Translations under genes and position numbers: made by a program
Notes under the pieces: model-generated
What the model saw: only the letters and a program-made list of their open reading frames with translations
The model's database searches: none
Told to the model about the DNA's origin: nothing
Shown: piece after piece, positions 15,545 to 59,313 of the stretch
Position numbering within the stretch: position 1 is the stretch's first letter
How the letters are laid out: each line of letters opens with the position of its first letter
Virus record (IMG/VR): IMGVR_UViG_3300035670_000060
Span: 1-64,000 of that record
Origin: a virus
Reading direction: 5' to 3' (one strand)
Length of the DNA: 64,000 bases

Positions 15545-15573
15545 AGTGTACATGGGTCGAGGTGCAAAGTCAA
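15545..15573 (-). promoter_or_regulatory. Sigma70-like promoter of cobT
   Basis: Minus strand: TTGACT (15573-15568), 17-base spacer, TACACT (15550-15545), 25 bases before the cobT start and overlapping the last codon of the endonuclease gene. Confidence 0.6.
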
Positions 15574-16541
15574 GACTGTTGTTTTTCTGCTACAGTGTCA
15601 AGTTGAGTTGACGGTTCTTCCAGGAAAGATTGTAGGTTTGCTTGAGCCGCCAATTTTTCGGCTCGTTCTCTTAATGCTCTTTTTCTACGGGCAGCAATTA
15701 ATTTCGCTTTTACTTCAGGTCTATTTAGTGCTTCTTTGGCTGCTACACTCATTTTTAATCTTGCTTCAGGACTACTAAGTGCTTTTTTCAATGATACACT
15801 CTTTTTTTCTTTTACTTCAGGTCTATTCATTGCTTCACGCTGTTTTTCCCTTACTTCAGGTCTATTTATTCTTTCAAGAAATTTTTTCTTTACTTCAGGT
15901 CTATTATTTACTTCTTTCGACGCAGCACACAATTTCGCTTTTACTTCAGGTCTATTCAGTGCTTCTTTGGCTGCTGCACTCATTTTTAATCTTGCTTCAG
16001 GACTACTAAATGCTTTTTTCAATGATACACTCTTTTTTTCTTTTACTTCAGGTCTATTCATCGCTTCTTTGGCTGCTGTCCTTTTTTTTAATCTTGCTTC
16101 AGGACTACTGAGTGCTTTTTTTAATGCAGCACTTAATTTTGCTTTTACTTCAGGTCTATTCAGTGCTTCTTTGATTGATGCACTTAATTTTGCTTTTACT
16201 TCAGGCCTATTCATTACTTCTTTAGAAGTTGCACTCTTTCTCGCTCTTTCTTCTTCAGAGGCTATATAGCCCCTAACACCATCACCGCCGGCCGTCAAAT
16301 TTCTGAGTATACCTGTATCATTATCAACTCTACCATATTTTTTAATTTGTTCAATTTCTATAGCAAACGCTTCTTCTTCAGTCAAATTTTCAGCATGAAA
16401 AATAATCCTACTTAAGTCTTTAGGCGCTTTGGTTGTTCTATTTTTACTATATGCCCTATCGCCAGTGCCTTTACCCACATAATATGGCGTACCATCTTCT
16501 CTTAAGTACATGTAAACATAGTATTTTCTTTCTTCATCCAT
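15570..16541 (-). CDS. GIY-YIG homing-type endonuclease with expanded NUMOD3-like repeat domain
   Basis: A 323-residue free-standing endonuclease. The GIY-YIG domain covers residues 7-90: YVYMYL (8-13), YYVGKG (20-25), Arg29, the catalytic Glu in FAIEIEQIKKYG and Asn81 in LRNLTAGGDG. From residue 95 on the protein is a chain of short units with the pattern (R/S)PE(V/A)(K/R)xK(L/M/K)SxxxKxAxx, about eleven copies, most 17 residues long. This is a NUMOD3-like DNA-binding motif that normally appears two to four times. The tail LRERAEKLAAQANLQSFLEE is a helix. It lies between cobT and the TAGT gene and is likely mobile. The start follows CGGAG. Confidence 0.88.
   Translation of the reverse strand: MDEERKYYVYMYLREDGTPYYVGKGTGDRAYSKNRTTKAPKDLSRIIFHAENLTEEEAFAIEIEQIKKYGRVDNDTGILRNLTAGGDGVRGYIASEEERARKSATSKEVMNRPEVKAKLSASIKEALNRPEVKAKLSAALKKALSSPEARLKKRTAAKEAMNRPEVKEKKSVSLKKAFSSPEARLKMSAAAKEALNRPEVKAKLCAASKEVNNRPEVKKKFLERINRPEVREKQREAMNRPEVKEKKSVSLKKALSSPEARLKMSVAAKEALNRPEVKAKLIAARRKRALRERAEKLAAQANLQSFLEEPSTQLDTVAEKQQS
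15672..16208. repeat. 51-bp imperfect tandem repeats in the endonuclease gene
   Basis: About eleven tandem units, mostly 51 bp with two of about 39 bp, are visible as the recurring stretch TTTTACTTCAGGTCTATT (plus strand). They encode the RPEVK/SPEAR units. Some blocks are duplicated in register (the pair around 15771-15825 repeats at 16005-16065), so unequal exchange has expanded the array while keeping the frame. Confidence 0.85.
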
Positions 16542-23475: not shown

Positions 23476-24930
23476 TTAGTCCTTTAAATTGATTGTATAT
23501 ATTTTATAATCAAACTTTTCATCATTATAAATTTTCATTCTCTCTTTAAAATGTTGAAGTGTAAAATTACTTTTACTTTTATAACTAATATCATCGGCTA
23601 TATCATATAATACAGCATTCTCTTTATTCTCACCAAGTCTCAAGCCACGACCAATTGATTGAAGTGTTCTAATTTTACTTTTACTGGGTGATGCAAAAAT
23701 AATGTTATGTAAATTACGAATATTAATACCAGTAGAAAATGTACCATAAGATGCTACGATAATTGCATTGGTTTGATTTTCTGTTAATTGACGAATGTGT
23801 TCTCTATCATCAACGTTTACATCACCATAAACAAAAGAAACTTCTCTATTTTTTACAAAAGATTGGATCATATCAAAAAGAACTTTACCATGCTTTTCAA
23901 CTAATTGAAATAAAACAAGAGTGTTACCTTTGAGACTTGCTGCAAGATTTCTTATGAACCTGTTTCTTTCATGGTTTGAAACCAAATAATCTATTTCTTC
24001 TTGATACTTATAACTTTTGCATTGTCTGGATTTTTCTTCACTGTGTTTCAATATCAACGCTTTAATAGAAAACTTAGCAAGTCTACCAGTATCAATGAGT
24101 TCTTTTGTTGTTGTAACTGAAAATTGTTTACCAAATAATCCTTCAAGAACTAACTTATGTGTCTGAGTGCCGTCAAGTGTGCCTGTCAATCCAAAACGAT
24201 ACTTGCATTGTGTCATTTTAGATAACAATGTCGTAAGTGACTTTGCTTTGAACTGGTGTGCTTCGTCGCCAATGACAACCGAAAATTGATTAAACCATTC
24301 TTTAGGCAGTGTGTAGATACTTTGCCAAGTGGAGATTACAATTTGTTTGTCTGTTGCTTTATCAGCGCCAGCCATAATTTGATGTATGTATTTATCGCTA
24401 GCAATTCCGTAGTCTAACATGTCTTTTGCTAACTGTGCGACAAGAGATATTGTTGGTACGATGATAAGCGTTCTTTCGTTGTACCATCGTGTCAGCAAAT
24501 AGATAATGAGTGACTTGCCTGATGCTGTCGGTGAAACCAATAACGCTCTTCGCTTTCTCACGCACCTAATAAATGAGTTTAATTGATAGTCACGGACTTC
24601 GAATGGTATTTGAAGCATTGATATAAAATCTGTCGCTTCTTTTACTGAAAATTCATCATCAACATTTAAATTGTCGTGAATTTCTATTTTATATTCTCTT
24701 TCTGTCGCAAATTTTTGAACATAATCTATCAAGCCACCATAGAGTGTATGATCTTGCGTATTGAATAGTCGAATCTTACCATCCCAAATTTTATTTCGAA
24801 ATGCTGGCATAAATTTGTAACCAGGCACATAGAAAGTGAAATACTCGGACAACTCCGCTGCCATAGACCTTTCACATTCTATCTTAACATAGACTTCGTT
24901 ATAATGTTTAATGATTAGTTTATTGTGCAT
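23476..24930 (-). CDS. uvsW: UvsW, recombination DNA helicase
   Basis: A 484-residue SF2 helicase that branch-migrates and unwinds R-loops and D-loops, turning off origin replication late. The N-terminal KVY-type domain (VKIECERSMAAELSEYFTFY) aligns with T4 UvsW. Helicase motifs: I SPTASGKSLI, Ia IIVPTISLVAQ, II IGDEAHQF, III LTGTLDG, V NAIIVASYGTFSTGINI and VI QSIGRGLRLG. The start ATG at 24930 spans the junction of a 31-bp tandem duplication (24899-24960). It is preceded by UvsY in the same transcript. Confidence 0.95.
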   Translation of the reverse strand: MHNKLIIKHYNEVYVKIECERSMAAELSEYFTFYVPGYKFMPAFRNKIWDGKIRLFNTQDHTLYGGLIDYVQKFATEREYKIEIHDNLNVDDEFSVKEATDFISMLQIPFEVRDYQLNSFIRCVRKRRALLVSPTASGKSLIIYLLTRWYNERTLIIVPTISLVAQLAKDMLDYGIASDKYIHQIMAGADKATDKQIVISTWQSIYTLPKEWFNQFSVVIGDEAHQFKAKSLTTLLSKMTQCKYRFGLTGTLDGTQTHKLVLEGLFGKQFSVTTTKELIDTGRLAKFSIKALILKHSEEKSRQCKSYKYQEEIDYLVSNHERNRFIRNLAASLKGNTLVLFQLVEKHGKVLFDMIQSFVKNREVSFVYGDVNVDDREHIRQLTENQTNAIIVASYGTFSTGINIRNLHNIIFASPSKSKIRTLQSIGRGLRLGENKENAVLYDIADDISYKSKSNFTLQHFKERMKIYNDEKFDYKIYTINLKD

Positions 24931-24960
24931 TATAATGTTTAATGATTAGTTTATTGTACA
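24899..24960. repeat. 31-bp tandem duplication at the uvsY-uvsW junction
   Basis: Copy 1 (24899-24929) and copy 2 (24930-24960) are identical except for one base (TGTGCA versus TGTACA near the end). Copy 1 encodes the first residues of UvsW; copy 2 contains the uvsY stop. The uvsW ATG is formed across the copy junction. Confidence 0.9.
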
Positions 24961-33027: not shown

Positions 33028-36000
33028 TTAACCAAAAATCATTGCCATTGCAATGCTCTTACCTGTAGTTATGCCACCACCACCACCGCCAGATAACAGT
33101 GAACCGTTAACATATATTCCTGTGTCGTTTACGCAAATTCTTTGACATGTTCCAGCATAAATTGCTACAATGTTTTGTAGTCCGGAAGTTCCTGCCCAGT
33201 TTCCAATAATTGTATTATTAGATCCTGTCGTGACCGAAAATCCTGCATCTGAACCAAAGAAATTATTATGAATGCCAGTGGTGTTAGAGTAACCAGCATA
33301 ATTACCAATGAAAATATTACAACTACCAGTGGTGTTAGAGAAACCAGCACGATTACCAGCAAAGAAGTTATGACTGCCAGCGGTGTTATTTAAACCAGCA
33401 AATCGACCTAAGAAATTATTGTTAGAGCCAGTGGTGTTACAGCAACCAGCACTGTTACCAAAAAAGTTATTATGACATCCAGTGGTGTTAGAGAAACCAG
33501 CACGATTACCAAAGAAATTATTATAACAGCCAGTGGTGTTGCAGTGACCAGCAAAAACACCAATGAAATTATTATTACTGCCAGTGGTGTTGTTGTAACC
33601 AGCAAAACCACCAATGAAATTATTACAACTGCCAGTGGTGTTAGCACGACCAGCAGTTGCACCGAAGAAATTATTATAACTGCCAGTGGTGTTAAAGTAA
33701 CCAGCACCGTTACCAAAGAAATTATTAGAAAAGCCAGTGGTATTGCCATAACCAGCACTTGAACCAATGAAATTATTAAAATATCCAGTGGTGTTAGCAG
33801 CACCAGCAGCATTACCAATGAAATTATTGTTAGAGCCAGTGGTGTTACAGCAACCAGCATTGTTACCAATGAAATTATTATGACATCCAGTGGTGTTAGA
33901 GAAACCAGCACGATTACCAAAGAAATTATTATAACAGCCAGTGGTGTTAGAGCAACCAGCATAATGGCCAAAAAAAGTATTATGACTGCCAGTGGTGTTA
34001 AAGTAACCAGCACTACGACCAAAGAAGTTATTATATGCACCAGTTGTGTTACAACGACCAGTATAGCGACCAAAGAAAGTATTAGCGAAAGCAGTTGTGT
34101 TTGCCGCACCAGCACCAAATCCGAAAAAGTTATTATAACGACCAGTGGTGTTATTACGACCAGCAAATTGACCAATGAAATTATTATGACTGCCAGTGAT
34201 GTTAAAGTGACCAGCACAGAAACCAGCAAAGAAGTTATAAGTACCAGTGGTGTTACACAAACCAGCACATGCACCAATAAAAGTATTATGACTGCCAGTG
34301 GTGTTAAAGCGACCAGCACACAAACCTGCAAAGAAGTTATTACTACCAGTGCTATTGGCTAAACCAGCACTGTTACCGAAGAAATTGTTATAACAGCCAG
34401 AATTCGAATAACCAGCAAAATGACCAAACATATTATTATTACAACCAGTAATGCTAAGAAAACCAGCATAGCGACCAAAGACATTATTATGACAGCCAGT
34501 GGTGTTACTGCGACCAGCTTGATTACCAAAAAAGTTATTATAACAACCAGTGGTGTTAAGACGACCAGCAGCTAGACCAAAGAAATTATTAAAACTGCCA
34601 GTGGTGTTACTGCAACCAGCACTTTGACCAAAGAAATTATTACTAGAGCCAGTGGTGTTACGAAAACCACTATTACATCCTAAAAAATTATTAAAAGTGC
34701 CTGTGGTGTTAGCAAAACCTGAAGAAAAACCTGCAAAGAAGTTATGACATCCAGTGGTGTTACAGTAACCAGCATTGTTACCAAAGAAATTATTATTAGC
34801 GCCAGTGGTGTTATAGTAACCAGCACGATTACCAATGAAAACATTATTATTGCCAGTGGTGTTAGAGTAACCAGCATAAACACCAATGAAAACATTATGG
34901 CAGCCAGTGGTATTACAGTAACCAGCATTTAGACCAAAGAAATTATTATAACAGCCAGTGGTCATATAGCGACCAGCAGATGAACCAAAGACATTATTAT
35001 ACCTGCCAGTGGTGTTATTACATCCACTGGTGACACCAAAGAAATTATTGTTACTGCCAGTGGTGTTACATAGACCAGCACCACGACCAAAGAAATTATT
35101 AAAAGTGCCAGTGGTATTGTTGCGACCAGCATTGCAACCAAAGAAATTATTATTACTGCCAGTGGTGTTACATAGACCAGCAAATAAACCAAAGAAATTA
35201 TTAAAACAGCCAGTGGTGTTACTGCGACCAGCACATGAACCAAAGAAATTATTACTACAGCCAGTGGTGTTACATAGACCAGCAAACAAACCAAAGAAAT
35301 TATTATTACTGCCAGAGGTATTGCTATAACCTGCACATAAACCAAAGAAAATATTAGAACTGCCAAGCGTGTTAGACCTTCCCGCTTGATTACCTATAAA
35401 AATATTATTGGAGACGGTGGTATTGGAATAACCAGCACAATTACCAGCAAAGAAGTTATGACTTCCCGTAGAATTACTATAGCCTGTACGATTGCCTATG
35501 AAAATATTATTACTACCGATTGTATTATTATAGCCTGTATTGAAACCAAAAAAATTATTATCATTTCCAGATGTATTGTATCGACCCGTTTCAGCGCCAA
35601 TAAAATTGTTATTGATACCTGTGGTATTATTTCCGCCGGCCCAAGCACCAATAAAATTGTTACAATTACCCGTCGTATTGTAATAGCCAGCAAGAGGACC
35701 AAAGAAATTATTATAAGTGCCTGTGGTATTACATGTTCCAGCAAAATATCCAAAAAAATTATTACAGCCGCCAGTTGTATTACTACTACCAGCATCACGA
35801 CCAAAGAAATTATTATAACCACCAGTGGTATTGCAGGCACCAGTACATTGACCAGCAAAGAAGTTACCACTGCCAGTGGTGTTTTTGAAACCAGCACTGT
35901 TACCAAAGAAGTTATTATGAGATCCTGTGGTGTTATAGGAACCAACTTGGTAACCAATGAAATTATTGTGACAGCCAGTGGTGTTACAGTAACCAGCATT

Positions 36001-39000
36001 TATACCAAAGAAATTATTATAACGACCATTGGTGTTATATTTTCCTGCTGATCGTCCAAAGAAATTATTATAACGGCCAGTGGTGTTACGGTAACCAGCA
36101 TAATAACCAAAGAAATTATTATTCTGGCCAGTGGTGTTAAATGAACCAGCACCACAACCAAAGAAATTATTATAACGACCAGTGGTATTACAGCGACCAG
36201 CATTTAGACCAAAAAAGTTATTCCAACCGCCAGTTGTGTTACTGTAACCAGCGCATTGACCAATGAAAACATTATGGCAGCCAGTGGTATTACAGTAACC
36301 AGCATAATAACCAAAGAAATTATTATAAGCGCCAGTGGTGTTCTTGTAACCAGCAAATAAACCAAAGAAATTATTACTACGGCCAGTGGTGTTATAGTAA
36401 CCACTACCTTTACCAATGAAATTATTATGATTGCCAGTGGTGTTACTGTAACCAGCACTACAACCAAAGAAATTATTATAAGCGCCACCAATATTACAGA
36501 AACCTGCTTGACGACCAATGAAGTTATTATGTCTAGCATAAGTTCCATGTCGTCCACTATTAATACCAATGTAAATATTACCACATCCAATGGTATTACA
36601 ACAACCAGATAAAGAACCAATAAAAATATTTTCAGAAGCGGTGTTAATGCGACCAGCACACAAACCTAAGAAAATATTATAGCCGCCAGTCGTGTTACAG
36701 ACACCAGCATTTTGACCAATGAAAATATTATGATTACCAGTGGTGTTACAGACACCAGCACATTGACCAGCAAAGAAGTTATTTGTTCCGGTACCACCGA
36801 TTCCACTTATGCAACTTACTATATTATTTGATCCACATACATTAAATACTGACGATCCACCTCCTATACCTGTCAAAGATGATCCATCACCAAAAAATTT
36901 TGTAGCGGTTATGTTATTGGCAGTAAAAGATCCTGAAGCATCTCTAGCAACAATCGTTGAAGCACCATTAGCTGATGCTGCACTAGTTCTAGCGTTTGCT
37001 AAAGTACCTGAAGATATATTAGATGCATTTGTGGTATCTGTTGTCGCTGATGCTGCTAATCCTGAAACTGCACTTGAACTAATTGCAATGTTTACGTTTG
37101 CTACACTCGTCGCTCTACCGTATGTATCAACAACAATTCGTGGTACAGATGATGCTGATCCATAAGTGTTTGCACTGACACCTGATGTTGGAAGTCTTGC
37201 AGCATTTAAAGTACCTGAGGATATGTTTGATGCATTTGTTGTATCAGTTGTAGCTGACGATGCTAAACCAGAAACTGCACCTGAACTAATGGCAATGTTT
37301 ACGTTTGCTACACTTGTTGCTCTACCGTATGTGTCAACGACAACCTGAGGTACTGCTGATGCTGAACCATAAGTACCTGCTGTTGCACCTGATGTTGGAA
37401 GTCTTGCGGCATTTAAAGTTCCGGAAGATATGTTGGATGCATTTAGTGTTGTTAATGATGCGCCACTACCAGAGAATCCTGTACTTGCAGTAATTGTATT
37501 TGCTGTTAAGTTTGCAATTCTAAATTGTGTATTTGATGTATCAATGTTTGTGTTTGTTCCAGGCTCAATAGGATAATTTTCAAAAAACTTCCATATACCG
37601 TCTGAAGCATCCCTAAACAAGCCAGCATGTACATTTGCACTATCCGAAAGTCTTCGATAATGTCCAATAAAACCAATATCAACTGCATCGGTTAGATTAT
37701 CTTTTCCTAATTGAATAATGTTATCTTCAATCACAAGATTATTTGCAGTTACGGAAATAACGTTACCTGTGAATGATACGTTTCCTGTTACAGTTAAATC
37801 TTGAAGAGTTACATTACCTGCTGAAAATGCTCCTGACGCATCTCTCAAAACAATTGTTGATGCCGTATTAGATGCCGTAGCAGTTGTTCTAGCGTTTGCT
37901 AAAGTACCTGAGGATATATTAGATGCATTTGTGGTATCTGTTGTAGCTGATGATGCTAAGCCTGAAACAGCACCAGATGAAATTGCAATTGAGACATTGG
38001 CTACACTCGTCGCTCTACCATATGTATCAACAACAATTTGTGGTACTGCTGATGCTGAACCATAAGTACCTGCTGTTGCACCTGATGTTGGAAGTCTTGC
38101 AGCATTTAAAGTTCCGGAAGATATGTTGGATGCATTTAGTGTTGTTAATAATGCGCCATTACCAGAAATAGTTGTTGATGTTATAACGTTTGCTGTAAAA
38201 GATCCTGAAGCATCTCTAGCAACAATGGTAGAAGCACCATTAGCTGATGCTGCACTAGTTCTAGCGTTTGCTAAAGTTCCGGAAGATATGTTGGATGCAT
38301 TTGTTGTATCAGTCGTCGCTGATGATGCTAAGCCTGAAACAGCACCAGATGAAATTGCGATTGAGACATTGGCTACACTTGTCGCTCTACCATATGTGTC
38401 CACAACAATTTGTGGTACAGATGACGATGATCCATAAGTGTTTGCACTGACACCTGATGTTGGAAGTCTTGCGGCATTTAAAGTTCCACTTGAAATATTA
38501 GATGCATTTGTTGTATCAGTCGTCGCTGATGTTGCTAAACCAGAAACTGCATTTGAACTAATTGCAATTGAGACATTGGCTACACTTGTCGCTCTACCAT
38601 ATGTATCAACAACAATTTGTGGTACTGCTGATGCTGAACCATAAGTACCTGCTGTTGCACCTGATGTTGGAAGTCTTGCAGCATTTAAAGTTCCGGAAGA
38701 TATATTAGATGCATTTGTTGTATCAGTCGTCGCTGATGTTGCTAAACCAGAAACTGCATTTGAACTAATTGCAATTGAGACATTGGCTACACTTGTCGCT
38801 CTACCTTTAGTGTCCACAACAATTTGTGGTACTGCTGATGCTGAACCATAAGTACCTGCTGTTGCACCTGATGTCGCTAATCTATCAGCACTCAATGTAC
38901 CTGAAGATACATTAGAAGCATTTATATTTGTAAGAGTTGAGGCATTTATATTTGTTAATGCTGATCCATCACCACTAAATGTTGTAGCTGTAATAACGTT

Positions 39001-39393
39001 CGCTGAAAATGATCCAGCACCATCTCTGAGCACAATAGTAGAAGCGCCGTTCGCTGAAGATGCTGTTGTTCTTGCGTTTGCTAAAGTTCCGGAAGATATA
39101 TTAGATGCATTTGTTGTATCAGTAGTCGCCGATGTTGCTAAACCAGAAACTGCATTTGAACTAATAGCAATGTTTACGTTTGCTACACTTGTTGCTCTAC
39201 CTTTAGTGTCCACAACAATTTGTGGTACTGCTGATGCTGAACCATAAGTACCTGCTGTTGCACCTGATGTCGCTAATCTATCAGCACTCAATGTACCTGA
39301 AGATACATTAGAAGCATTTATGTTGGTTAAGGTATTACCAGAACCAACAAAATGTAAAGCCGAAACGGCTTCTTTGACTTTAAAATTTGCCAT
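33028..39393 (-). CDS. Giant tail fibre with about 70 NTTG repeats
   Basis: A 2121-residue fibre protein. Residues 1 to about 850 are long repeats around NASNISSGTL and GTYGSASAVPQIVVDT, mixed with domains such as NLVIEDNIIQLGKDNLTDAV and FIGHYRRLSD that are shared with other fibres. From about residue 860 to 2080 it is a chain of 17-residue units, consensus NNFFGxxAGxxNTTGxx, about 70 copies. The C terminus has INGS-LLSGGGGGG and ends GITTGKSIAMAMIFG, a tail seen on marine phage fibres; there is no S74 chaperone. The repeats suggest a beta-solenoid rod. Cys is frequent at variable positions. It is probably co-transcribed with the fibre upstream. It is distinct from T4 long-tail fibre genes. 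Confidence 0.88.
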   Translation of the reverse strand: MANFKVKEAVSALHFVGSGNTLTNINASNVSSGTLSADRLATSGATAGTYGSASAVPQIVVDTKGRATSVANVNIAISSNAVSGLATSATTDTTNASNISSGTLANARTTASSANGASTIVLRDGAGSFSANVITATTFSGDGSALTNINASTLTNINASNVSSGTLSADRLATSGATAGTYGSASAVPQIVVDTKGRATSVANVSIAISSNAVSGLATSATTDTTNASNISSGTLNAARLPTSGATAGTYGSASAVPQIVVDTYGRATSVANVSIAISSNAVSGLATSATTDTTNASNISSGTLNAARLPTSGVSANTYGSSSSVPQIVVDTYGRATSVANVSIAISSGAVSGLASSATTDTTNASNISSGTLANARTSAASANGASTIVARDASGSFTANVITSTTISGNGALLTTLNASNISSGTLNAARLPTSGATAGTYGSASAVPQIVVDTYGRATSVANVSIAISSGAVSGLASSATTDTTNASNISSGTLANARTTATASNTASTIVLRDASGAFSAGNVTLQDLTVTGNVSFTGNVISVTANNLVIEDNIIQLGKDNLTDAVDIGFIGHYRRLSDSANVHAGLFRDASDGIWKFFENYPIEPGTNTNIDTSNTQFRIANLTANTITASTGFSGSGASLTTLNASNISSGTLNAARLPTSGATAGTYGSASAVPQVVVDTYGRATSVANVNIAISSGAVSGLASSATTDTTNASNISSGTLNAARLPTSGVSANTYGSASSVPRIVVDTYGRATSVANVNIAISSSAVSGLAASATTDTTNASNISSGTLANARTSAASANGASTIVARDASGSFTANNITATKFFGDGSSLTGIGGGSSVFNVCGSNNIVSCISGIGGTGTNNFFAGQCAGVCNTTGNHNIFIGQNAGVCNTTGGYNIFLGLCAGRINTASENIFIGSLSGCCNTIGCGNIYIGINSGRHGTYARHNNFIGRQAGFCNIGGAYNNFFGCSAGYSNTTGNHNNFIGKGSGYYNTTGRSNNFFGLFAGYKNTTGAYNNFFGYYAGYCNTTGCHNVFIGQCAGYSNTTGGWNNFFGLNAGRCNTTGRYNNFFGCGAGSFNTTGQNNNFFGYYAGYRNTTGRYNNFFGRSAGKYNTNGRYNNFFGINAGYCNTTGCHNNFIGYQVGSYNTTGSHNNFFGNSAGFKNTTGSGNFFAGQCTGACNTTGGYNNFFGRDAGSSNTTGGCNNFFGYFAGTCNTTGTYNNFFGPLAGYYNTTGNCNNFIGAWAGGNNTTGINNNFIGAETGRYNTSGNDNNFFGFNTGYNNTIGSNNIFIGNRTGYSNSTGSHNFFAGNCAGYSNTTVSNNIFIGNQAGRSNTLGSSNIFFGLCAGYSNTSGSNNNFFGLFAGLCNTTGCSNNFFGSCAGRSNTTGCFNNFFGLFAGLCNTTGSNNNFFGCNAGRNNTTGTFNNFFGRGAGLCNTTGSNNNFFGVTSGCNNTTGRYNNVFGSSAGRYMTTGCYNNFFGLNAGYCNTTGCHNVFIGVYAGYSNTTGNNNVFIGNRAGYYNTTGANNNFFGNNAGYCNTTGCHNFFAGFSSGFANTTGTFNNFLGCNSGFRNTTGSSNNFFGQSAGCSNTTGSFNNFFGLAAGRLNTTGCYNNFFGNQAGRSNTTGCHNNVFGRYAGFLSITGCNNNMFGHFAGYSNSGCYNNFFGNSAGLANSTGSNNFFAGLCAGRFNTTGSHNTFIGACAGLCNTTGTYNFFAGFCAGHFNITGSHNNFIGQFAGRNNTTGRYNNFFGFGAGAANTTAFANTFFGRYTGRCNTTGAYNNFFGRSAGYFNTTGSHNTFFGHYAGCSNTTGCYNNFFGNRAGFSNTTGCHNNFIGNNAGCCNTTGSNNNFIGNAAGAANTTGYFNNFIGSSAGYGNTTGFSNNFFGNGAGYFNTTGSYNNFFGATAGRANTTGSCNNFIGGFAGYNNTTGSNNNFIGVFAGHCNTTGCYNNFFGNRAGFSNTTGCHNNFFGNSAGCCNTTGSNNNFLGRFAGLNNTAGSHNFFAGNRAGFSNTTGSCNIFIGNYAGYSNTTGIHNNFFGSDAGFSVTTGSNNTIIGNWAGTSGLQNIVAIYAGTCQRICVNDTGIYVNGSLLSGGGGGGITTGKSIAMAMIFG
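33175..36800. repeat. 51-bp tandem repeats encoding NTTG units (fibre 1)
   Basis: About 70 imperfect copies of a 51-bp unit, seen on the plus strand as CCAGTGGTGTTA followed by ACCAGC and AAAGAAATTATT. A 150-base segment at about 33410-33560 recurs at about 33815-33968, so there have been internal segmental duplications. Confidence 0.9.
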
Positions 39394-39435: not shown

Positions 39436-41760
39436 TTACACTGTGCTGTAATTTGTTCCTACTAGTTTCACTGTGATAGTTGCATTAGTTCCTTGAGCAA
39501 AAAGTCTTAGATTTCCGGAACTAATGTTTGCAGTGAAGATTACTAAATCATCATTTACATTAGTCGATACGATACCATATTCTGATATATATACGTTTGT
39601 ATCATCATGTACAACATGAATTTTTCCAGTTGAAAAATATGGTGTGCCTGTTGTAGTTTTTATATGGTATGTATATTCTGCCGTTCGATATGTAGCAATC
39701 GCAAAACTATCAACAATTGTTGCTGATCCTGTTGTTATGCCAGATGTAGATGATTCTAAAGAACCTGCACCTGTAAATACAATATTATCACCAGATTTGC
39801 TTACTGTGACTGTTCCAGCGCCAACAAAGTTTACATTACTCGTTGCACCACTTGTCAATGCTGTTAGTGTAAGATTTGCACCAGATGTCGCTGTTGTAGT
39901 TGATATAGAATATGTATCATATTCAACCGGAATAGGTACATTATAATAATTAGTACCATTATTTGTAAAGTTCCAACGATCACTAGATTCGTTCCATAAA
40001 AATTTAACGTTTGTTGATGTGCCACGCTCAACTTCAATACCTGCGTCTTGTGACGGAGAACCAGTCTCATCACTGTTCAACAATAAAACGCTGTCACCAA
40101 TGTCAACTTGATTTGAATTAACCGTTGTAGTTGTACCATTAACAGTTAGATTTCCTGTAATAACAGTATTACCGTCAACACTCAGATCATTGACTGTTAC
40201 ATTACCCGCTGAAAATGCTCCAGCAGCATCTCTAAGAACTATCGTTGAAGCGCCGTTTGCTGAAGCAGCGGTTGTTCTAGCGTTATCTAATGTGCCTGTT
40301 GATATATTTGATGCGTCTAGATTTGTTAACGCTGCGCCGTTGCCAGAGAATGTGGTAGCCGTTATAGCGTTTGCAGCAAAAGATCCTGAACCATCTCTTG
40401 CGACAATTGTGGATGCACCGTTAGCGGATGCGGCTGATGTTCTAGCGTTTGCTAAAGTTCCTGTTGAAATATTTGATGCATCTAAATTTGTTAATGCTGC
40501 ACCATTACCTACATGAGTTCCTGATAATGTTGTACTCGTTATAACATTTGCTGCGAATGAACCAGAAGCATCCCTAGCAACGATGGTAGAAGCACCATTT
40601 GCTGATGCTGCTGTTGTTCTAGCGTTATCTAATGTGCCTGTTGATACGTTAGATGCATTTAAATCTGTAAGTGCTGCTCCGTTACCTGAAAACGTTGTCG
40701 CTGTTATAGCATTTGCAGCAAAAGATCCTGAACCATCTCTTGCAACAATAGTCGAAGCACCATTTGCTGATGCTGCTGTTGTTCTTGCGTTATCTAATGT
40801 TCCAGTTGCTACGTTAGATGCATTTAAATTTGTTAATGCTGAACCATTACCAGAAATTGTTGTTGATGTTATAGCATTAGCTGTGAATGATCCTGATGCA
40901 TCTCTTGCGACAATTGTTGAAGCGCCGTTTGCTGAAGCGGCGGTTGTTCTAGCATTGTCCAGTGTGCCAGTTGATACATTTGACGCATTTAAATCTGTAA
41001 GTGCTGCACCATTACCAGAAATTGTTGTTGATGTTATAGCATTAGCTGTAAATGAACCAGAAGCATCTCTAGCAACAATCGTTGAAGCGCCGTTTGCTGA
41101 AGCAGCAGTTGTTCTATCATTTGATAAAGTTCCTGATGTTACGTTTGATGCATTTAAATTTGTAAGAGTTAACCCATTACCTATAATATAAGTTGCTATA
41201 ACATTTCCTGATATCGTTAAGTCAGCATCAGACGTTGTTAAAGTTGTACCACCAATTTTTAAGGAACTGCCTGAAAGATATAAATCTCTGAATCTATGTG
41301 TGTCATCACCTAGATCGTAAGTTACATTAGCATCTGGTAAAATATGACCTGATACAGTAAGGCCGTTCAAAATTCCTACTTGAGTAATATTTGATTGTGT
41401 TGTTGTAATTAATGTACCAGTAATTTGATTTGCGCTAAAATTTCCAGCCGCATCTCTTGCAACAATCGTTGAAGCACCATTTGCTGAAGCTGCCGTTGTT
41501 CTAGCGTTTGCCAAAGTACCTGATGATATATTGGACGCATTTAAATCTGTAAGTGCTGAGCCATTACCAGATATTGTTGTTGATGTTATAGCGTTTGCGC
41601 TAAAACTACCAGAAGCATCTCTAAGAACAATGGTAGAAGCGCCGTTCGCTGAGGCCGCGGTTGTTTTATCATTTGTTATTGTCGAACCTATCCAGTATCC
41701 AGCTGAATTAACAACATCTACGCTGTTAACCTTGATACCACTTTTGACCTTAAATGTCAT
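39436..41760 (-). CDS. Tail fibre with NASN/GTL repeats
   Basis: A 774-residue fibre protein. It begins MTFKVKSGIKVNSVDVVNSA, followed by repeat units of about 54 residues built on NASNxxTGTLDNARTTAASA then NGASTIVARD and SGSFxANAITSTTISGNGAA. The middle contains ILPDANVTYDLGDDTHRFRD then LYLSG, a fibre motif shared with the 41796 protein. A C-terminal block contains DIGDSVLLLNSDETGSPSQD and AGIEVERGTSTNVKFLWNE. The shared NASN repeats show homology with the N-terminal part of the 2121-residue fibre, suggesting gene duplication. It has its own late promoter. Confidence 0.85.
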   Translation of the reverse strand: MTFKVKSGIKVNSVDVVNSAGYWIGSTITNDKTTAASANGASTIVLRDASGSFSANAITSTTISGNGSALTDLNASNISSGTLANARTTAASANGASTIVARDAAGNFSANQITGTLITTTQSNITQVGILNGLTVSGHILPDANVTYDLGDDTHRFRDLYLSGSSLKIGGTTLTTSDADLTISGNVIATYIIGNGLTLTNLNASNVTSGTLSNDRTTAASANGASTIVARDASGSFTANAITSTTISGNGAALTDLNASNVSTGTLDNARTTAASANGASTIVARDASGSFTANAITSTTISGNGSALTNLNASNVATGTLDNARTTAASANGASTIVARDGSGSFAANAITATTFSGNGAALTDLNASNVSTGTLDNARTTAASANGASTIVARDASGSFAANVITSTTLSGTHVGNGAALTNLDASNISTGTLANARTSAASANGASTIVARDGSGSFAANAITATTFSGNGAALTNLDASNISTGTLDNARTTAASANGASTIVLRDAAGAFSAGNVTVNDLSVDGNTVITGNLTVNGTTTTVNSNQVDIGDSVLLLNSDETGSPSQDAGIEVERGTSTNVKFLWNESSDRWNFTNNGTNYYNVPIPVEYDTYSISTTTATSGANLTLTALTSGATSNVNFVGAGTVTVSKSGDNIVFTGAGSLESSTSGITTGSATIVDSFAIATYRTAEYTYHIKTTTGTPYFSTGKIHVVHDDTNVYISEYGIVSTNVNDDLVIFTANISSGNLRLFAQGTNATITVKLVGTNYSTV

Positions 41761-42925: not shown

Positions 42926-45379
42926 TTATACAAAAGAACCAAAATCAACTGTAAGACCGGCTGTAGGTGAAGTAAAAGATCCAAAATCAAGTTCAATGAT
43001 TGCGTTATTGGAAGGTGTTATGCTATTTATCGAATCAAATCTTATTGATTGATTTATACTATTCGCTGTAATTGTTATACCAGTACCAGCTAAAAAATTT
43101 ACTGTGTCTAAACCAACAGCAGTCAATCCTGGATTTGAATTTACATTCCAATATTTAAATGAAGTAATTGTATTTGCGTAATCATAAGCTGCTTGTGCTA
43201 AACTGTTTGCAGTGTTTGCTGTATCATATATGCTATTTGCATCAGTTCTTAGCAAATATTGTGGATGATCATCGTCCGTAAGGCCCGTAAGTAAACCATG
43301 ATCACTCAAAGTTGCTGGTAAAGTTGTTATAGAATTAAAACTTCTTAAATCCCAAACAGAAACTAATCTTGCATTGACGCTGTTTATATAACTTGTTTTG
43401 CATTCGTAAACAAGTTTGTATAACGGACGCATTTCAACAACAGGAAATCCCGTAAGAATCAAATCTGAGAATTGAATTCCTTCAGCATCACCTATGTTAG
43501 ACCTTTGATCTTGACCAATAATACCTATAACAGGATAATTGATGTTGTTTGTTGCAACAATAAAAGTTACACCAAATTTATTGTTATCAATGTCTACGGT
43601 AGACCATGTACCACCGCTGAATTGATTATATTGTGGTCTTGCAGATCCTTGTTTAATTGGAAAGTTAGTTGGTGTATCAATCACCCAAGCATCATTGCTT
43701 AAATAAAACATTGGAATTCTTGCGGGGCCTTGCAAGTCTTGTTCCCATGTATTTGCTGTCGGTGTGTTTGAATGCGTGATATCAACTTGCAAATCTTCAT
43801 CAAAAAACGTACCATCCTGAATATCAATTTGAAGGTGTGTATCAAGAGAACCATCGCCATTAACTATATAATTTGTAGCACCAAAACCATTTGCAATCGC
43901 TGCACCTCTTGTACGATGCAAATATTCGTGCGTCTGCCAATCTAAAGTAATGCCGTGACGTTCATCTGCAACAAACGGCGCTGTTTGTGTATTTTGATTC
44001 CAATACACATAAGCAACCATACAATCATCATCCCAATCAAAAAATGTTGTTCTATATTGAAGAACACCACTAGGATCAAAATAAATGTAATAAAGACCTG
44101 TTGTATTTGGTATAGTGACGGATCTGCTATTTGTAATCTGTCTTTTGATACCTTTAGTGTAAATGTAATATGATGCACTAACTGGTGATATAGTAAATGT
44201 CCTTGATACATCATTAAATGATATAGCGGAATCTGTTCTTTCAACAATTCCCATTGGCTCTTTTGTATCAGCAAAAATTGCATTGATTGTATCAAGGAAT
44301 GGTGAAGAAATTGTTAGTGTGTCAGTGCTCGCATCAGTAGTAATAACAATATTATTGCCAGCAGCAATAGTTAATGTATCAGTATTTGAATCAGCAACTA
44401 TATCATCTTGTCCTGTTACTGATATTGTTTTAAATAAAATAATTGTATTAGCATAATCATATGCCGCTTGAGCTAAAGAATTTGCGTTGTTGGCTTGGTC
44501 ATATGCTGAATTTGATGTATTCCAAATTTGATATACTGTAGTATTAACTGCATATCCAGTTAAATCAACATCAAATGTTAAAGAGTCTGCTACCGTGTCT
44601 GTTGTTATAATTAAATTATTACCAGATACAACACTCAATGTAGCGTTTGTAGAATTCGCTGTAACTAAATCGGTATTGTTTACTAAAACATTTCTAAAAG
44701 CTGGACCACCTTCTCCTGTGCCAGTTTGTTGTATAAAAGTAAATTTTTTAGTTGCGTTGTTATAAGAAAGAACATAACCTTCTTGAATACTATCACGGTC
44801 AACATCATCTAGCCAACGAAAATTAACTTCACCACCACCAGAACTACCGCCTACAATATTTTTAGATATTATAGCATTGACTTTATTTTTGTATTGAACA
44901 ACATCTTTGAGAACTAATGATTTAAAGTTTTTAAAATCTTTTTCAAATTCTTTGGTATCAGCATCTCTGCCAGAATCACCTTTATCACCTTTTTCGCCTT
45001 TATCTCCCTTTTCACCTTTTGGACCTTGAATTCCAGGAAGACCTTTGTCTCCTTTAGGACCACGTGAACCTGTCTCACCTTTCTTACCTTGCGGACCCTG
45101 GATACCTTGAGGACCTTGCTCGCCAGTATCACCTTTTTCACCAGAAAATCCACGTGGACCAATTTCGCCTCTATCACCTTTTAAAACACGAACGAGTCCT
45201 TCCTGATCAGTAGGATCTTTTATTGCACCTGATTCAACAATTGTTTTTGCGTATTCTTCTAAAGATTCTAGTCGTTTTAAAAGTTTATCAACTTCTTTTT
45301 TTGTATATGCTATAGAAGTTGCTATAGATAACGCTTCATCAATTGCTTTTACATGAAGATTACTTTTCTCCTCGCTCAT
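42926..45379 (-). CDS. Collagen-like fibre protein
   Basis: An 817-residue fibre protein. After an N-terminal helix ([20 protein letters not shown], heptads to residue 50) there is a collagen-like run of about 23 G-x-y triplets ([20 protein letters not shown] and [20 protein letters not shown]), followed by beta domains and repeats such as [20 protein letters not shown]. The collagen stretch would form a trimeric rod. The start overlaps gene 20 by 20 bases; I chose the first ATG, which fits the coiled N terminus. It is the first gene of the fibre block after the portal gene. Confidence 0.83.
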
Positions 45380-54685: not shown

Positions 54686-54898
54686 TTAACAGATTAGTGC
54701 TTTGCCATCAATCAATAGTAAATTGCCTTTGCATGCCAGATTCCATTTTTTTACACCATGCTCGTAAGTACATTCGTCATACACGGGCACGTTGATTTCT
54801 AAACTTTTAGCTAAGACTTCTTCGCCATTTTCAAAAATTCTCCAGAAAAAATCAGTGTCGCCGTGCTGTGTATTAAATCGAATATGGTATTGCTTCAT
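54686..54898 (-). CDS. Small hypothetical protein with the APS kinase-like gene
   Basis: A 70-residue protein: YHIRFNTQHGDTDFFWRIFE, then NGEEVLAKSLEINVPVYDEC, EHGVKKWNLACKGNLLLID. The pattern R-x-N-T ... W-R-x-x-x-x-G-x-E-x-L ... G-V-x-K-W-N-x-x-C-x-G recurs in marine T4-like phages beside the APS kinase-like gene. It is likely beta-rich and Cys-containing. Its start overlaps the stop of that gene by 4 bases, so the two are translated together. It may be an accessory factor for that pathway (inference). Confidence 0.7.
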   Translation of the reverse strand: MKQYHIRFNTQHGDTDFFWRIFENGEEVLAKSLEINVPVYDECTYEHGVKKWNLACKGNLLLIDGKALIC

Positions 54899-55731
54899 TC
54901 AATTCCCATTTCTTTTCGAATTTTGGTTGCTGAAATAGCATGTATCGTATCATCGAAAACTTCTTGTTCAATCTTGTAGCCGACATCTCTACCGTATGTG
55001 ATGTTTACAATGTTTGGAACAATCAAAATTTCATACTGACCTTGATAGAGTGGATCTAAGTCTCTTCGAATATAGTTTTTAACTTCTTCAATTGCAAATG
55101 GATTACTTCCATTCCAACCCTGACAATCACGAATCATGATACATACTTGACCAGTTTTTGCTAACGCTCTTTCAAATAACGCACGATGACCTTTGTGCCA
55201 TGGTTGCCAACGACCTAACATCTGCACAGTTTCTTTGCGCCAATCAAAAGTTGGTCTTCTTTTACGACTTAAAATTGCTTCACCTACATACTGCACCCAC
55301 TTTTCAGCATTCTTTTCGTTGATTCTAAAATCATAGATTTCTGGTGGCACAAATGCTTTGTTCGTATCTTCATAACGACCAGCATCAATCGTATCCATCC
55401 AGATTGTCCAGTCTGCTTTAAAGTTGTGACGCATTTCAGCAAGTGGTGCTACAAAATCACAAATGACATATTCGCCAGTGCATCGCATTGCAAATTCTGC
55501 CATCCTCAACGACTGCCGAATGCGACCTTCTTTTGAAAAGTCCCAATCATTGAATCGCTTTCGAATGTCATCAGCATTGAACCAATCAACTCGTGCGTTC
55601 ATTCGAGGATATGGAGCGTCACTAAGTGTGTTTAAAGGACGCTCTCCGTGAATCTCAAGATAAGTCTTTAATCGTTCTGCAAAATATGTTTTACCTGAGC
55701 CAGGCAAACCCATAATCAATATTTTTTCCAT
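54895..55731 (-). CDS. APS kinase-like P-loop domain fused to an HxGH nucleotidyltransferase
   Basis: A 278-residue two-domain enzyme. Residues 1-155 are an adenylylsulfate-kinase-like domain: Walker A GLPGSGKT (8-15), FNADDIRKRFNDWDFSKEGR and EYVICDFVAPLAEMRHNF, the APS kinase pattern. Residues 165-278 are a nucleotidyltransferase with GRWQPWHKGHRALF (HKGH at 179-182) and ISATKIRKEMG (ISxTxIR). Together they could form APS and then PAPS, or charge a different sulfate or sugar donor; the second domain's substrate is not visible. The start is the ATG at 55731, not the upstream TTG. It is 18 bases after an 81-residue gene, and a sulfotransferase gene lies just upstream. Confidence 0.82.
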   Translation of the reverse strand: MEKILIMGLPGSGKTYFAERLKTYLEIHGERPLNTLSDAPYPRMNARVDWFNADDIRKRFNDWDFSKEGRIRQSLRMAEFAMRCTGEYVICDFVAPLAEMRHNFKADWTIWMDTIDAGRYEDTNKAFVPPEIYDFRINEKNAEKWVQYVGEAILSRKRRPTFDWRKETVQMLGRWQPWHKGHRALFERALAKTGQVCIMIRDCQGWNGSNPFAIEEVKNYIRRDLDPLYQGQYEILIVPNIVNITYGRDVGYKIEQEVFDDTIHAISATKIRKEMGIE

Positions 55732-55748
55732 TATATAAAACTCCAAAA

Positions 55749-55994
55749 TTATTGAGCGATTGCTGCACTTCCCTGAGTGATTGCGTTATGCAAATCAGAA
55801 ATGTCTTCGCCAGATCCGGACACATCTGGATTTCCAACTACTAGTTTAAGATGCTCAACATTTCGATCAATGTTTCCACGAAGTTCGTCAGAAAGTGTTG
55901 CGCCTGCTGCAATCTTTGCTAAAGAATCTTCAATGACCCAAACGCTATCTCTTGCTGCTCGAATTGTATATAGAACTTCTGGTGTTGCTGGCAT
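55749..55994 (-). CDS. Small conserved hypothetical protein
   Basis: An 81-residue helical acidic protein, beginning MPATPEVLYTIRAARDSVWV with IEDSLAKIAAGATLSDELRG and a terminal DISDLHNAITQGSAAIAQ. It has one predicted long helix pair and no Cys. It occupies the place between the sulfotransferase and the APS kinase-like gene in one operon (2 bases from the sulfotransferase stop). No function known to me. The Ala/Gly-rich, low-charge middle suggests a small structural or virion-associated protein. Confidence 0.68.
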   Translation of the reverse strand: MPATPEVLYTIRAARDSVWVIEDSLAKIAAGATLSDELRGNIDRNVEHLKLVVGNPDVSGSGEDISDLHNAITQGSAAIAQ

Positions 55995-55995
55995 A

Positions 55996-56946
55996 TTAGC
56001 CTCCTATGAGTTTAGTATCTTCGGTTTCTGTTGGTGCATCCGATTCGGATGTTGGTTCTTCAAAATTTGCGTCAATCTCTTGTAGATTTCTCCAAAATGC
56101 TGTATTTTCACATCGCTTTAAAATTTCTTCTGAAAGAACTTCTTTAGGATCGACTGACGCTCTATTTATTGTACTACGAACTTCATGCATGTCTGCAAGC
56201 CCATAAACTTCAGCATCTTTTTCTTTATGTATGTTTTCAATTTTGCTAAAGTCATGTGCGAAATATTCTTCACCAAGAAATTCATAAATCTTTCGCATTG
56301 TATCATCTGGATTCTCAAGCAAATCGTTATATTCAATGAAGTGAAGATTTTTCTGTCTACCTTCCATTAGTGCTTGTTGAATGCCAAAATAGCTTTGGCC
56401 AAGAATTCCATTTGGACTAGCTAAGAACGTACATCGATTATCATCGTTTAAAGGCGTGTTTGTTTTGATAAGCATTTCATCAATGAAATTAATCTTACCT
56501 TCACCGCCGTATGGATTTCTGCGTTGCATTGTAATAAATGATGTAAGAATTTCTTCAATGTCACGAACTGGGCATAAAACTTTTGGTTCAATTCCAAAAT
56601 ATCCAGGAATGTAATGTAGTCGATTCACCCATGACCGATTCTTGTCAATGATGACAGGCTTATCTACGTCAGAATAATAATTATCCATGACACTAGAAAT
56701 AATTTTTGCAGCTTGTGGTAACTTAGGAAAAGCCATAAAAAGTTCATCGTTTGAAAAAGAATTTTCAAGCGTGAGCATTGTAGGTACCACAGGAGAACTT
56801 GGACCAGAATAGACTCTTGGATTTTGATTTAGAATCGATGATAGAAGTGTACTTCCTGATCTTGGAAGCCCAGACATAAAGTAGTATGTCTTCATTGACG
56901 CTCTCATCATTTCTTCTCTTATAATTTCTTTAATCATTTCTTTCAT
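55996..56946 (-). CDS. Sulfotransferase
   Basis: A 316-residue PAPS-dependent sulfotransferase. The 5'-phosphosulfate loop is YYFMSGLPRSGSTLLSSI (P-loop 26-33), followed by a 3'-phosphate site near KPVIIDKNRSWVNRLHYIPG and PVRDIEEILTSFI. The region LLENPDDTMRKIYEFLGEEY is the conserved C-terminal helix of the family. An amphipathic N-terminal helix (MKEMIKEIIREEMMRA) is extra. Its substrate (carbohydrate, protein tyrosine or other) is not readable. It is in one operon with the APS kinase-like fusion and glycosyltransferases. The start follows GAGGTGATGAACA, with a late-promoter match 44-51 bases upstream. Confidence 0.88.
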   Translation of the reverse strand: MKEMIKEIIREEMMRASMKTYYFMSGLPRSGSTLLSSILNQNPRVYSGPSSPVVPTMLTLENSFSNDELFMAFPKLPQAAKIISSVMDNYYSDVDKPVIIDKNRSWVNRLHYIPGYFGIEPKVLCPVRDIEEILTSFITMQRRNPYGGEGKINFIDEMLIKTNTPLNDDNRCTFLASPNGILGQSYFGIQQALMEGRQKNLHFIEYNDLLENPDDTMRKIYEFLGEEYFAHDFSKIENIHKEKDAEVYGLADMHEVRSTINRASVDPKEVLSEEILKRCENTAFWRNLQEIDANFEEPTSESDAPTETEDTKLIGG

Positions 56947-56957
56947 TGTTCATCACC

Positions 56958-57860
56958 TCATTGTTGATTGTTTACAGATTCTATAATTTTATTTATATCA
57001 AATAATTTAACGTCATCTGTATAAGGATATTCAATTTCATTTCCGTTGAAGTCAAAGTCAAATAAGTAACTGCCAGGAAGTTTGAAGTTATATGGCACAT
57101 CGGTACAAATATTATCATGCATATCATAACCAAAAACTTTAGGGCTTGTACCATTCCATAAAACAGTGGATTTCTTTCTAAGTGCTGCTGCTGCATGTTG
57201 CAACGAAGAGTCTATAAGAATTCTCTTTTTGCTATGTAAAAGAATACTAAAAAATTCCATTAGACTGAGTGCTTGTTGCTGCGTAGCAAAAACATGTTCA
57301 GCGCCTTCAAGTTTTGGTGAGTTCATCTTGGTAACTTGGTAAATATGATAGTCTTTTTTGTAATAGTCTATCAATTCTTGTGCTAATTCTGGCGGCATGT
57401 CTCTTGTCCATGAATAAGGCTTAGCATCTGTTGTCATTGGACCGCCACTTGTATGTATAACCATGATAGGCTTTTTTCTCAACCAAAATTTTCTTGAAAG
57501 ATCCCATTGAAGTTTATTAAACTTTACCTCTGGGCGCTCATTGTCGAATTTTAATTGATGCATTTCGCACCAATTTTCAATCAGTCGTTTCCGTTTATGT
57601 ATATGATTTGTCGTATAGTATGGTTCGTGATGAAAAATCAGAGAATCTTTATCTTGAATGTATTCTTGGTAGAAATATTGTGTGCCACCTAACAGAAAAA
57701 CTCTGTCAACAAAAGAAAGATTAATAAAAATATCAGGATATGCACATACGACAATGAGTTTTCTGTCAGGAAAATTGTTTTTAATTGCTTTTGCAACAGC
57801 GGTTGCTGCTACGTGTTTTCCAATACCGCCTTGAAGATGAAAAATACTATATTTCTTCAT
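56958..57860 (-). CDS. GT9-like (heptosyltransferase-type) glycosyltransferase
   Basis: A 300-residue GT-B fold enzyme. The N-terminal domain has FHLQGGIGKHVAATAVAKAI, a nucleotide-sugar Gly-rich loop, and the C-terminal half has IHTSGGPMTTDAKPYSWTRD, and RILIDSSLQHAAAALRKKST then VLWNGTSPKVFGY, the donor-binding pattern of ADP-heptose-type transferases. It probably transfers a sugar to a lipopolysaccharide-like or virion acceptor. The adjacent two enzymes are GT2-like. In the operon it is followed by the sulfotransferase, suggesting that the glycan is later sulfated. Confidence 0.8.
   Translation of the reverse strand: MKKYSIFHLQGGIGKHVAATAVAKAIKNNFPDRKLIVVCAYPDIFINLSFVDRVFLLGGTQYFYQEYIQDKDSLIFHHEPYYTTNHIHKRKRLIENWCEMHQLKFDNERPEVKFNKLQWDLSRKFWLRKKPIMVIHTSGGPMTTDAKPYSWTRDMPPELAQELIDYYKKDYHIYQVTKMNSPKLEGAEHVFATQQQALSLMEFFSILLHSKKRILIDSSLQHAAAALRKKSTVLWNGTSPKVFGYDMHDNICTDVPYNFKLPGSYLFDFDFNGNEIEYPYTDDVKLFDINKIIESVNNQQ
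56990..56997 (-). promoter_or_regulatory. Late-promoter match before the sulfotransferase gene
   Basis: TATAAATA on the minus strand inside the 3' end of the GT9-like gene, 44-51 bases before the sulfotransferase start. Exact to the late consensus, but it lies inside coding sequence. Confidence 0.6.
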
Positions 57861-57861
57861 A

Positions 57862-58590
57862 TTATAACCTTTCTTTTGTTGCTTTCACGATGTCCCACGT
57901 TCTCGCATTTTTGATATGATGAAAATGATATGCATTACTTGCGTCTAAAGCTAGTCTTTTAGTTATGTCATAATTTTTATGCTCTGAAACAAGCGTTTTT
58001 GATATCTCACCTTTGATCCTATTCGTCTTGAATATGTATATATGTTCGTTGTTCTGCGTCAGATATTCATCACCGAACCAGATTTGATATAGTCTTGGTA
58101 TCACCTTATACGAAGTTCGCTTTATAAACATACATACACCAAATGCATATCCTTGACCACCTATAGGTTGAGTTTTATCATGTTTGAGTTTGAACAATTC
58201 ATCTTCACCTTCATGAACACCAACTGTATAATTATCTGGTGTGTTTTTTAAATGAACGCCTACAACATCAATCTCTTTAAAATCTACTGCTGAGAAATCA
58301 CGAAATACACTCGATTCAACTTCTATGTCATCATTGATAATGGAAAGAACATTCGCTTTTGATCTATAGTAACCTTCATTCCACGAAGGATTTACGTAGT
58401 TGTTTTTACCATAACAAATGATATGCAACTTAGATGAATTCAATTCGTCAACTCTTTTTGGTCGATTTGCTTTGTCATTGTCAATCAAAAAGATATTTCC
58501 AATATACTCGCATTCAATGTAGGTGTCAAGTGCGGATAGAAAATTTTTAGACTTCCACATTGTAGGAATTACAACGTCAATTGTATTCAT
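57862..58590 (-). CDS. GT2-like glycosyltransferase
   Basis: A 242-residue GT-A glycosyltransferase. It begins NTIDVVIPTMWKSKNFLSAL, has the metal-binding region LSIINDDIEVE (DD pair for the DxD site), a conserved GGQGYAFGVCMFIKRTSYKV and WFGDEYLTQNNEHIYIFK, the acceptor/catalytic ED-like part. It overlaps the upstream GT gene's stop by 4 bases and is 2 bases from the GT9-like gene. The three transferases together could build a short oligosaccharide. Confidence 0.82.
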   Translation of the reverse strand: MNTIDVVIPTMWKSKNFLSALDTYIECEYIGNIFLIDNDKANRPKRVDELNSSKLHIICYGKNNYVNPSWNEGYYRSKANVLSIINDDIEVESSVFRDFSAVDFKEIDVVGVHLKNTPDNYTVGVHEGEDELFKLKHDKTQPIGGQGYAFGVCMFIKRTSYKVIPRLYQIWFGDEYLTQNNEHIYIFKTNRIKGEISKTLVSEHKNYDITKRLALDASNAYHFHHIKNARTWDIVKATKERL

Positions 58591-59284: not shown

Positions 59285-59313
59285 ATTGTATATATTGTCA
59301 CATAAAATGTCAA
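59285..59313 (-). promoter_or_regulatory. Sigma70-like promoter of the glycosyltransferase-sulfotransferase operon
   Basis: Minus strand: TTGACA (59313-59308), 17-base spacer, TACAAT (59290-59285). Consensus 6/6 and 5/6. It overlaps the stop codon of the giant fibre gene and lies 36 bases before the start at 59249. Confidence 0.75.

Follow-up and report, generated by a model that had tools for sequence, protein, structure and literature searches.

The closest described relatives of the proteins studied here belong to the families PHROG 23837, 4636 and 6002, whose members from the pelagiphages HTVC111P and HTVC112P, Prochlorococcus phage P-SSM2 and the archaeal virus vir515 contain a 17-residue unit of like type; several of them end in an S74 domain, as does gene 2 described below. 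For a YadA-type cyanophage fibre gene, recombination between repeats has been inferred from experimental evolution (PMC6224464). A host recognition cluster that holds tail fibres and glycosyltransferases between VrlC and gp14 is described in the relevant part of PMC7029224, and the fungal HNWD receptors (het-d, het-e) carry WD40 repeats with high internal conservation (PMC12222747). Here we analyzed bases 1-64,000 (the window) of the 113,653-base IMG/VR virus record IMGVR_UViG_3300035670_000060, in which two fibre genes, joined by a third just past the window end, carry long arrays of a 17-residue unit. The arrays are 29-42% identical to fibres of pelagiphages, Prochlorococcus phage P-SSM2, roseophages and an archaeal virus. 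We propose that they are probably the rods of fibres or tailspikes with which a T4-like myophage contacts its host, and that they evolve by whole units.

Three fibre genes with arrays of a 17-residue unit

The unit reads N-x-F-x-G-x-x-A-G-x-x-N-T-T-G-x-x and was counted with the anchor N-x-[hydrophobic]-[hydrophobic]-G-x-x-A-G. An earlier prediction, made from the letters of the window, had reported about 70 copies of this NTTG repeat in each of two genes, and the counts agree with it: gene 1 has 71 units and gene 2 has 73, over 3.6 and 3.7 kb. That prediction was also right about gene 1, with its NASN-type modules and GKSIAMAMIFG tail, and about the S74 domain in gene 2. The two genes had been called twins because the window ended before the third array gene; both arrays stand, but they are not a pair, since the record contains three long array fibre genes with 53 to 73 copies each (Table 1). 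The third gene shares its N-terminal modules with gene 1, and a domain profile search gave no Peptidase_S74 match in genes 1 and 3. Four exact tandem units were reached in none of 790 shuffled open reading frames (ORFs).

Within an otherwise constant frame, each unit has six variable positions (6, 7, 10, 11, 16 and 17). In the three genes pooled, these are occupied by Ser (16%), Cys (15%), Tyr (13%), Asn (12%), Phe and Arg (8% each), Ala and Leu (5% each) and His (4%). Cys accounts for ~5% of the arrays versus <1% of seven other proteins of the same phage.

Gene 2 matches the virion structural protein family PHROG 23837 (E 4e-105) with a profile that spans the array and the C-terminus, and gene 1 matches both this family (E 3e-67) and the tail spike family PHROG 4636 (E 2e-24). 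Sub-threshold matches of gene 1 to Pfam NinH and NCBIfam YtfR were set aside as repeat artefacts. Because the record encodes a portal, sheath, tube, large terminase, major head protein, baseplate wedge, sheath stabiliser gp15 and neck, its gene content identifies the virus as a T4-like myophage; no phage matched when 25 kb were searched by megablast. Genes 2 and 3 sit between a very large PHROG-358 protein, located beside baseplate wedge genes, and the genes for neck and adaptor proteins, while gene 1 is in another region, between the genes that encode the major head protein and the portal. The assignment of the arrays to fibres or tailspikes is supported by these virion and tail-spike families, the T4-like genome and the solenoid model presented below.

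Other repeat proteins are also encoded in the window, all on the minus strand. A structural protein of 774 amino acids (aa; 39436-41760) consists of 55-residue NASN/ASANGASTIVARDASG repeats, the module type seen in the N-terminal part of gene 1, and a tail fibre with a collagen-like Gly-x-y stretch is located at 42926-45379. A second period-51 array, unrelated to the fibre arrays, is found in a 323-aa protein (15570-16541) that starts like a GIY-YIG endonuclease and continues with about ten repeats, mostly of 17 residues, of the type NRPEVKAKLSAALKEAL.

Predicted fold of the array

An AlphaFold2 monomer model of 12 units, run together with 17 further in-register segments, is a confident parallel beta-solenoid (predicted local distance difference test score, pLDDT, 82.7; predicted template-modelling score, pTM, 0.84). 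Each of its rungs has a strand that covers unit positions 2-4. In VIA-align, which compared only candidates supplied by Foldseek, the model superposed on beta-helix proteins with Z of ~12-15 over ~200 residues, including AlgE4 (Z 14.6), antigen 43 (14.4) and the Dettilon tailspike (14.1), so the model and the superposition support the beta-solenoid suggested earlier. The matched proteins are right-handed beta-helices. A phage protein named Chlorovirus glycoprotein repeat is another structural neighbour of the model, and the Pfam profile of that name gave no match to array segments. With the rise of ~0.48 nm per rung that is typical of beta-solenoids, the unit counts would give rods of ~34, 35 and 25 nm for genes 1, 2 and 3. 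In addition, a trimeric gene 2 product is plausible because S74 chaperones act on trimers.

Covariation within the arrays was consistent with this model. Positions 2 and 4 show strong coupling, both inside a rung and from one rung to the next, as a stacked core would predict, while the six variable positions show weak coupling at most, mainly at position 11. The patterned outer face of the original prediction thus has indirect support. Cys-Cys combinations at position 11 of neighbouring rungs are rarer than expected (7 versus 21, p 1e-5, one of many tests), and in arrays 1 and 2 the position-11 Cys is enriched at every second rung, a spacing that may come from two-unit duplications or from disulphide avoidance.

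From these features we suggest that each 17-residue unit would form one rung of a parallel beta-solenoid and the whole array a stiff rod, with three pairs of variable residues per rung displayed along its surface. In gene 2, the S74 chaperone would fold the chains and set their register.

Copy-number change and codon pattern

Genomes of one related virus, obtained from different metagenomes, have either 22 or 24 units, and each allele was seen in several assemblies. The difference is one two-unit duplication of 102 bases, the copies of which differ at one base; the flanks of the two alleles are identical over 6.4 kb upstream and 99.99% identical over 8.7 kb downstream. Other relatives have ~20-87 units, the figure for one gene depending on how interruptions are treated. 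The nearly equal length of arrays 1 and 2 had been read as a sign of functional constraint, such as paired rods. We rejected this reading because the third gene has 53 units, sister genomes of one relative differ by two units and related phages have widely different copy numbers, the outcome that the earlier prediction had named as refuting it (no close relative with both genes was found). The block of units common to genes 1 and 2 also lies at different offsets in the two arrays.

The codons of the constant residues are specific to their position and far from genome usage. Thr13 is ACC in ~67% of units versus 8% of Thr codons in control genes, and Ala8 is mostly GCT versus 33% in control genes. 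A universal constraint on these codons was rejected, as the codons fixed at these positions are not the same in other viruses; given both observations, the units appear to share recent ancestry or to be homogenised. In the six variable codons, the first two bases are almost random and the third is mostly T or C. In genes 1 and 2, the four-fold synonymous difference at framing codons is 0.29 versus 0.65 at bases 1 and 2 of the variable codons, and in a relative (L014) the corresponding values are 0.07 and 0.59. The selection ratio at variable codons rises to 8.4 in one array, and positive selection is suggested, not proven; a stronger version of this reading of the framing and variable codons was toned down in view of the pN/pS ratios given below. 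The NASN modules of gene 1 diverge as ordinary constrained sequence, with 46 synonymous and 9 nonsynonymous codon changes in the longest pair.

In the account that we propose, arrays would gain and lose whole units by recombination or slippage, in some cases at least as pairs, and blocks would be swapped between array genes. Unit turnover and exchange would keep the framing sequence uniform, and the variable residues would meanwhile diverge, unrestrained or under diversifying selection, giving a rod surface that changes quickly.

Several points weigh against this account. Foldseek of the array model against the PDB returned no significant match, no solved structure matches the array by sequence, and the fold and its handedness come from one monomer model. 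The presence of the array proteins in the virion and their contact with the host are predictions. For the variable codons, the ratio of nonsynonymous to synonymous differences per site (pN/pS) is ~0.9-1.4 (NG86, 41 non-redundant arrays) and only 0.66 in the block that genes 1 and 2 have shared recently; these codons may simply be unconstrained.

Table 1 Array genes, their parts and the downstream enzyme genes (window positions unless marked)
Feature	Position	Strand	Details
Fibre gene 1	33028-39393	minus	intact ORF, 2121 aa: NASN modules N-terminal, 71-unit array, short C-terminal tip GKSIAMAMIFG
Array 1	33166-36780	minus	aa 872-2076, 3.6 kb, 71 units; spacing exactly 17 in 66/70
Gene 1 N-terminal region	36781-39393	minus	NASN/SSGTL modules, 69-residue repeats
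Block of ~12 units common to arrays 1 and 2, array 1 copy	34210-34824	minus	205 aa, 92% DNA identity
Common block, array 2 copy	62235-62849	minus	offset different from array 1 copy
Fibre gene 2	59310-63839	minus	intact ORF, 1509 aa: 136-aa N-terminal part, 73-unit array, C-terminal S74 chaperone
Array 2	59715-63431	minus	aa 137-1375, 3.7 kb, 73 units; spacing exactly 17 in 68/72
Peptidase_S74 (intramolecular chaperone), gene 2	59472-59633	minus	aa 1403-1456; 24.6 bits, cut-off 22
Third array gene, just past window end	record position 64327-68664 (L009:327-4664)		1445 aa, 53 units, irregular insertions
GT-A-fold glycosyltransferase (PHROG 1574 relative)	58587-59249	minus	directly downstream of gene 2; AlphaFold2 pLDDT 90
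Probable second GT-A-like glycosyltransferase	57862-58590	minus	weak: glycosyltransferase profile match E 0.04; NDDI motif in alignment
GT9 (heptosyltransferase)-like protein	56958-57860	minus	weak: Pfam Glyco_transf_9 E 0.026, below cut-off
Sulphotransferase	55996-56946	minus	Pfam Sulfotransfer_3 E 8e-15
Adenosine 5'-phosphosulphate (APS)-kinase-like and nucleotidyltransferase-like domains in one protein	54895-55785	minus	Pfam APS_kinase E 2e-6; nicotinamide mononucleotide (NMN)-adenylyltransferase-like region E 3e-7

The enzyme genes downstream of gene 2 and alternative explanations

Gene 2 is followed by a cassette of candidate sugar- and sulphate-transferring enzymes (Table 1). The first is identified as a GT-A-fold glycosyltransferase by a fold search rather than by a sequence profile: in Foldseek its model matched the collagen galactosyltransferase COLGALT1 (E 2e-8), then LH3 and mimivirus R699, and lower down a polypeptide N-acetylgalactosamine (GalNAc)-transferase. 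Profiles of this protein and of the GT9-like protein against PDB sequences gave nothing useful. Homologues of the second enzyme are longer in relatives, with an extra, methyltransferase-like C-terminal region. The sulphotransferase is a clear assignment; its nearest solved relatives are protein-tyrosine sulphotransferases (E 2e-4, residues 22-68 only). The APS-kinase-like protein could supply the sulphate donor 3'-phosphoadenosine 5'-phosphosulphate (PAPS). The window encodes a second glycosyltransferase-like protein of PHROG 1574 at 11146-11982 on the minus strand, well away from the fibre genes. A perfect 31-base direct repeat (1.9 copies, 24899-24957) overlaps the start of a helicase gene.

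The order of array and enzymes recurs in other viruses. At L013, L014, L017, L022 and L023, array genes are followed by homologues (44-78% identity) of two to four of the first four enzymes. An array was present at 34 of 42 loci with the GT-A gene, and in 31 of the 42 the array ORF ends 19-138 bases upstream of it; 11 of these loci belong to a single virus recovered from several samples, which lowers the independent number. None of 80 control loci chosen by the single-strand DNA-binding protein (789 kb) contained an array. At some loci the enzymes are found beside other fibre types or sugar genes instead.

We regard it as quite possible, though short of an even chance, that these enzymes alter the host cell surface (O-chain) against superinfection and merely share a host-recognition island with the fibre genes. 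This would agree with the view of the pelagimyophage and cyanomyophage host recognition cluster in the part of PMC7029224 concerned with it, where tail fibres and glycosyltransferases lie next to the neck gene, and neck and adaptor genes adjoin the cassette in our virus too. However, a GT-A gene 19-138 bases after the array gene across divergent viruses is a tighter arrangement than a shared island requires.

More tentatively, the enzymes might decorate the fibre itself, placing a glycan on the repeat (for example on Asn12 of N-T-T or on a variable Ser, Thr or Tyr) that is then sulphated. Asn12 fits an N-x-T sequon, the GT-A model comes closest to a collagen galactosyltransferase and to LH3 and also matches a polypeptide GalNAc-transferase, the cassette includes a sulphotransferase, and the recurrent array-enzyme order and the empty control loci point in the same direction. 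On the other side, some loci pair the enzymes with other fibre types or sugar genes, the GT-A model reaches Foldseek TM-scores of only ~0.5 and has a fold of a general kind, the N-T-T motif may have a structural role, and several of the GT-A loci are one virus from different samples. An array fibre beside a gene for a sugar-transferring enzyme suggests a decorated, fast-changing host-contact rod, and sequence alone is compatible both with decoration of the fibre and with editing of the host surface. That hypervariable, interchangeable rungs are in addition glycosylated and sulphated along the fibre by adjoining dedicated enzymes, so that the surface would be diversified twice over, we consider doubtful.

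It is also unlikely that the array is a trimeric YadA-type left-handed beta-roll and not a solenoid of the beta-helix type. YadA domains are often annotated in cyanophage and pelagiphage fibres in the relevant parts of PMC6224464, PMC7029224 and PMC3909814, and a YadA fold is still compatible with the absence of a YadA chain among the Foldseek matches listed for the array model. On the other hand, the array segments have no Pfam match at E up to 10, either to YadA_head or to any other model, and the monomer model superposes on beta-helix proteins. Finally, mutation of the variable codons by a diversity-generating retroelement, which would fit their mostly T or C third base and varying first two, is highly improbable and was rejected, as a reverse transcriptase was found in neither this record nor ten related records (which may be fragments), no template copy was found outside the three array genes, the Asn1 adenines are invariant in 178/178 units with no adenine-specific change, and the codons of variable positions 6 and 10 in L014 often have A as their third base.

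Comparison with known systems

How the long adhesins of phages stay evolvable is still an open question. The whole-unit variation between sister genomes and the six free residues per rung make the rates and consequences of such change directly measurable. Should the fibre be the target of the linked glycosyltransferases and sulphotransferase, the locus would encode phage fibres that are sulphated glycoproteins and come with their own enzyme set; should the host be the target instead, it would be a fibre-plus-receptor-editing module.

Our literature search did not find this array type described. The repeat type itself is already known, while the copy number, the Cys content, the pattern of a constant frame with hypervariable positions, the natural unit polymorphism and the fixed enzyme neighbourhood were not found in the literature searched. 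Compared with 71-73 units here, the longest chains counted in HTVC111P, HTVC112P, Venkman, CRP-1 and vir515 have 12-19. The PHROG relatives often have NTAIGxxAL-type units and contain 0-2.6% Cys, against ~5% here. The beta-helix tailspikes and adhesins (tailspike 6f7k, antigen 43 7koh, AlgE4 2pyg; Z ~14) likewise form a parallel beta-solenoid; they have no sequence relation to the arrays, which differ in their strict 17-residue rungs and have no recognised enzyme site.

Genes 2 and 3 with the cassette resemble by position the cluster described in the corresponding part of PMC7029224, having fibres and glycosyltransferases between baseplate and neck genes. Unlike the fibres of that cluster, gene 1 lies outside the host-recognition island, and the sulphotransferase/APS-kinase-like pair and the fixed fibre-enzyme order seen here are not mentioned in that part of the paper. 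The HNWD receptors (PMC12222747) resemble the arrays in their homogenised repeats, hypervariable positions and repeat-number polymorphism, for which our case is the 22 versus 24 units of the related virus. They differ from them in fold and role, and in that diversifying selection is reported for HNWD whereas it is not firm for the arrays.

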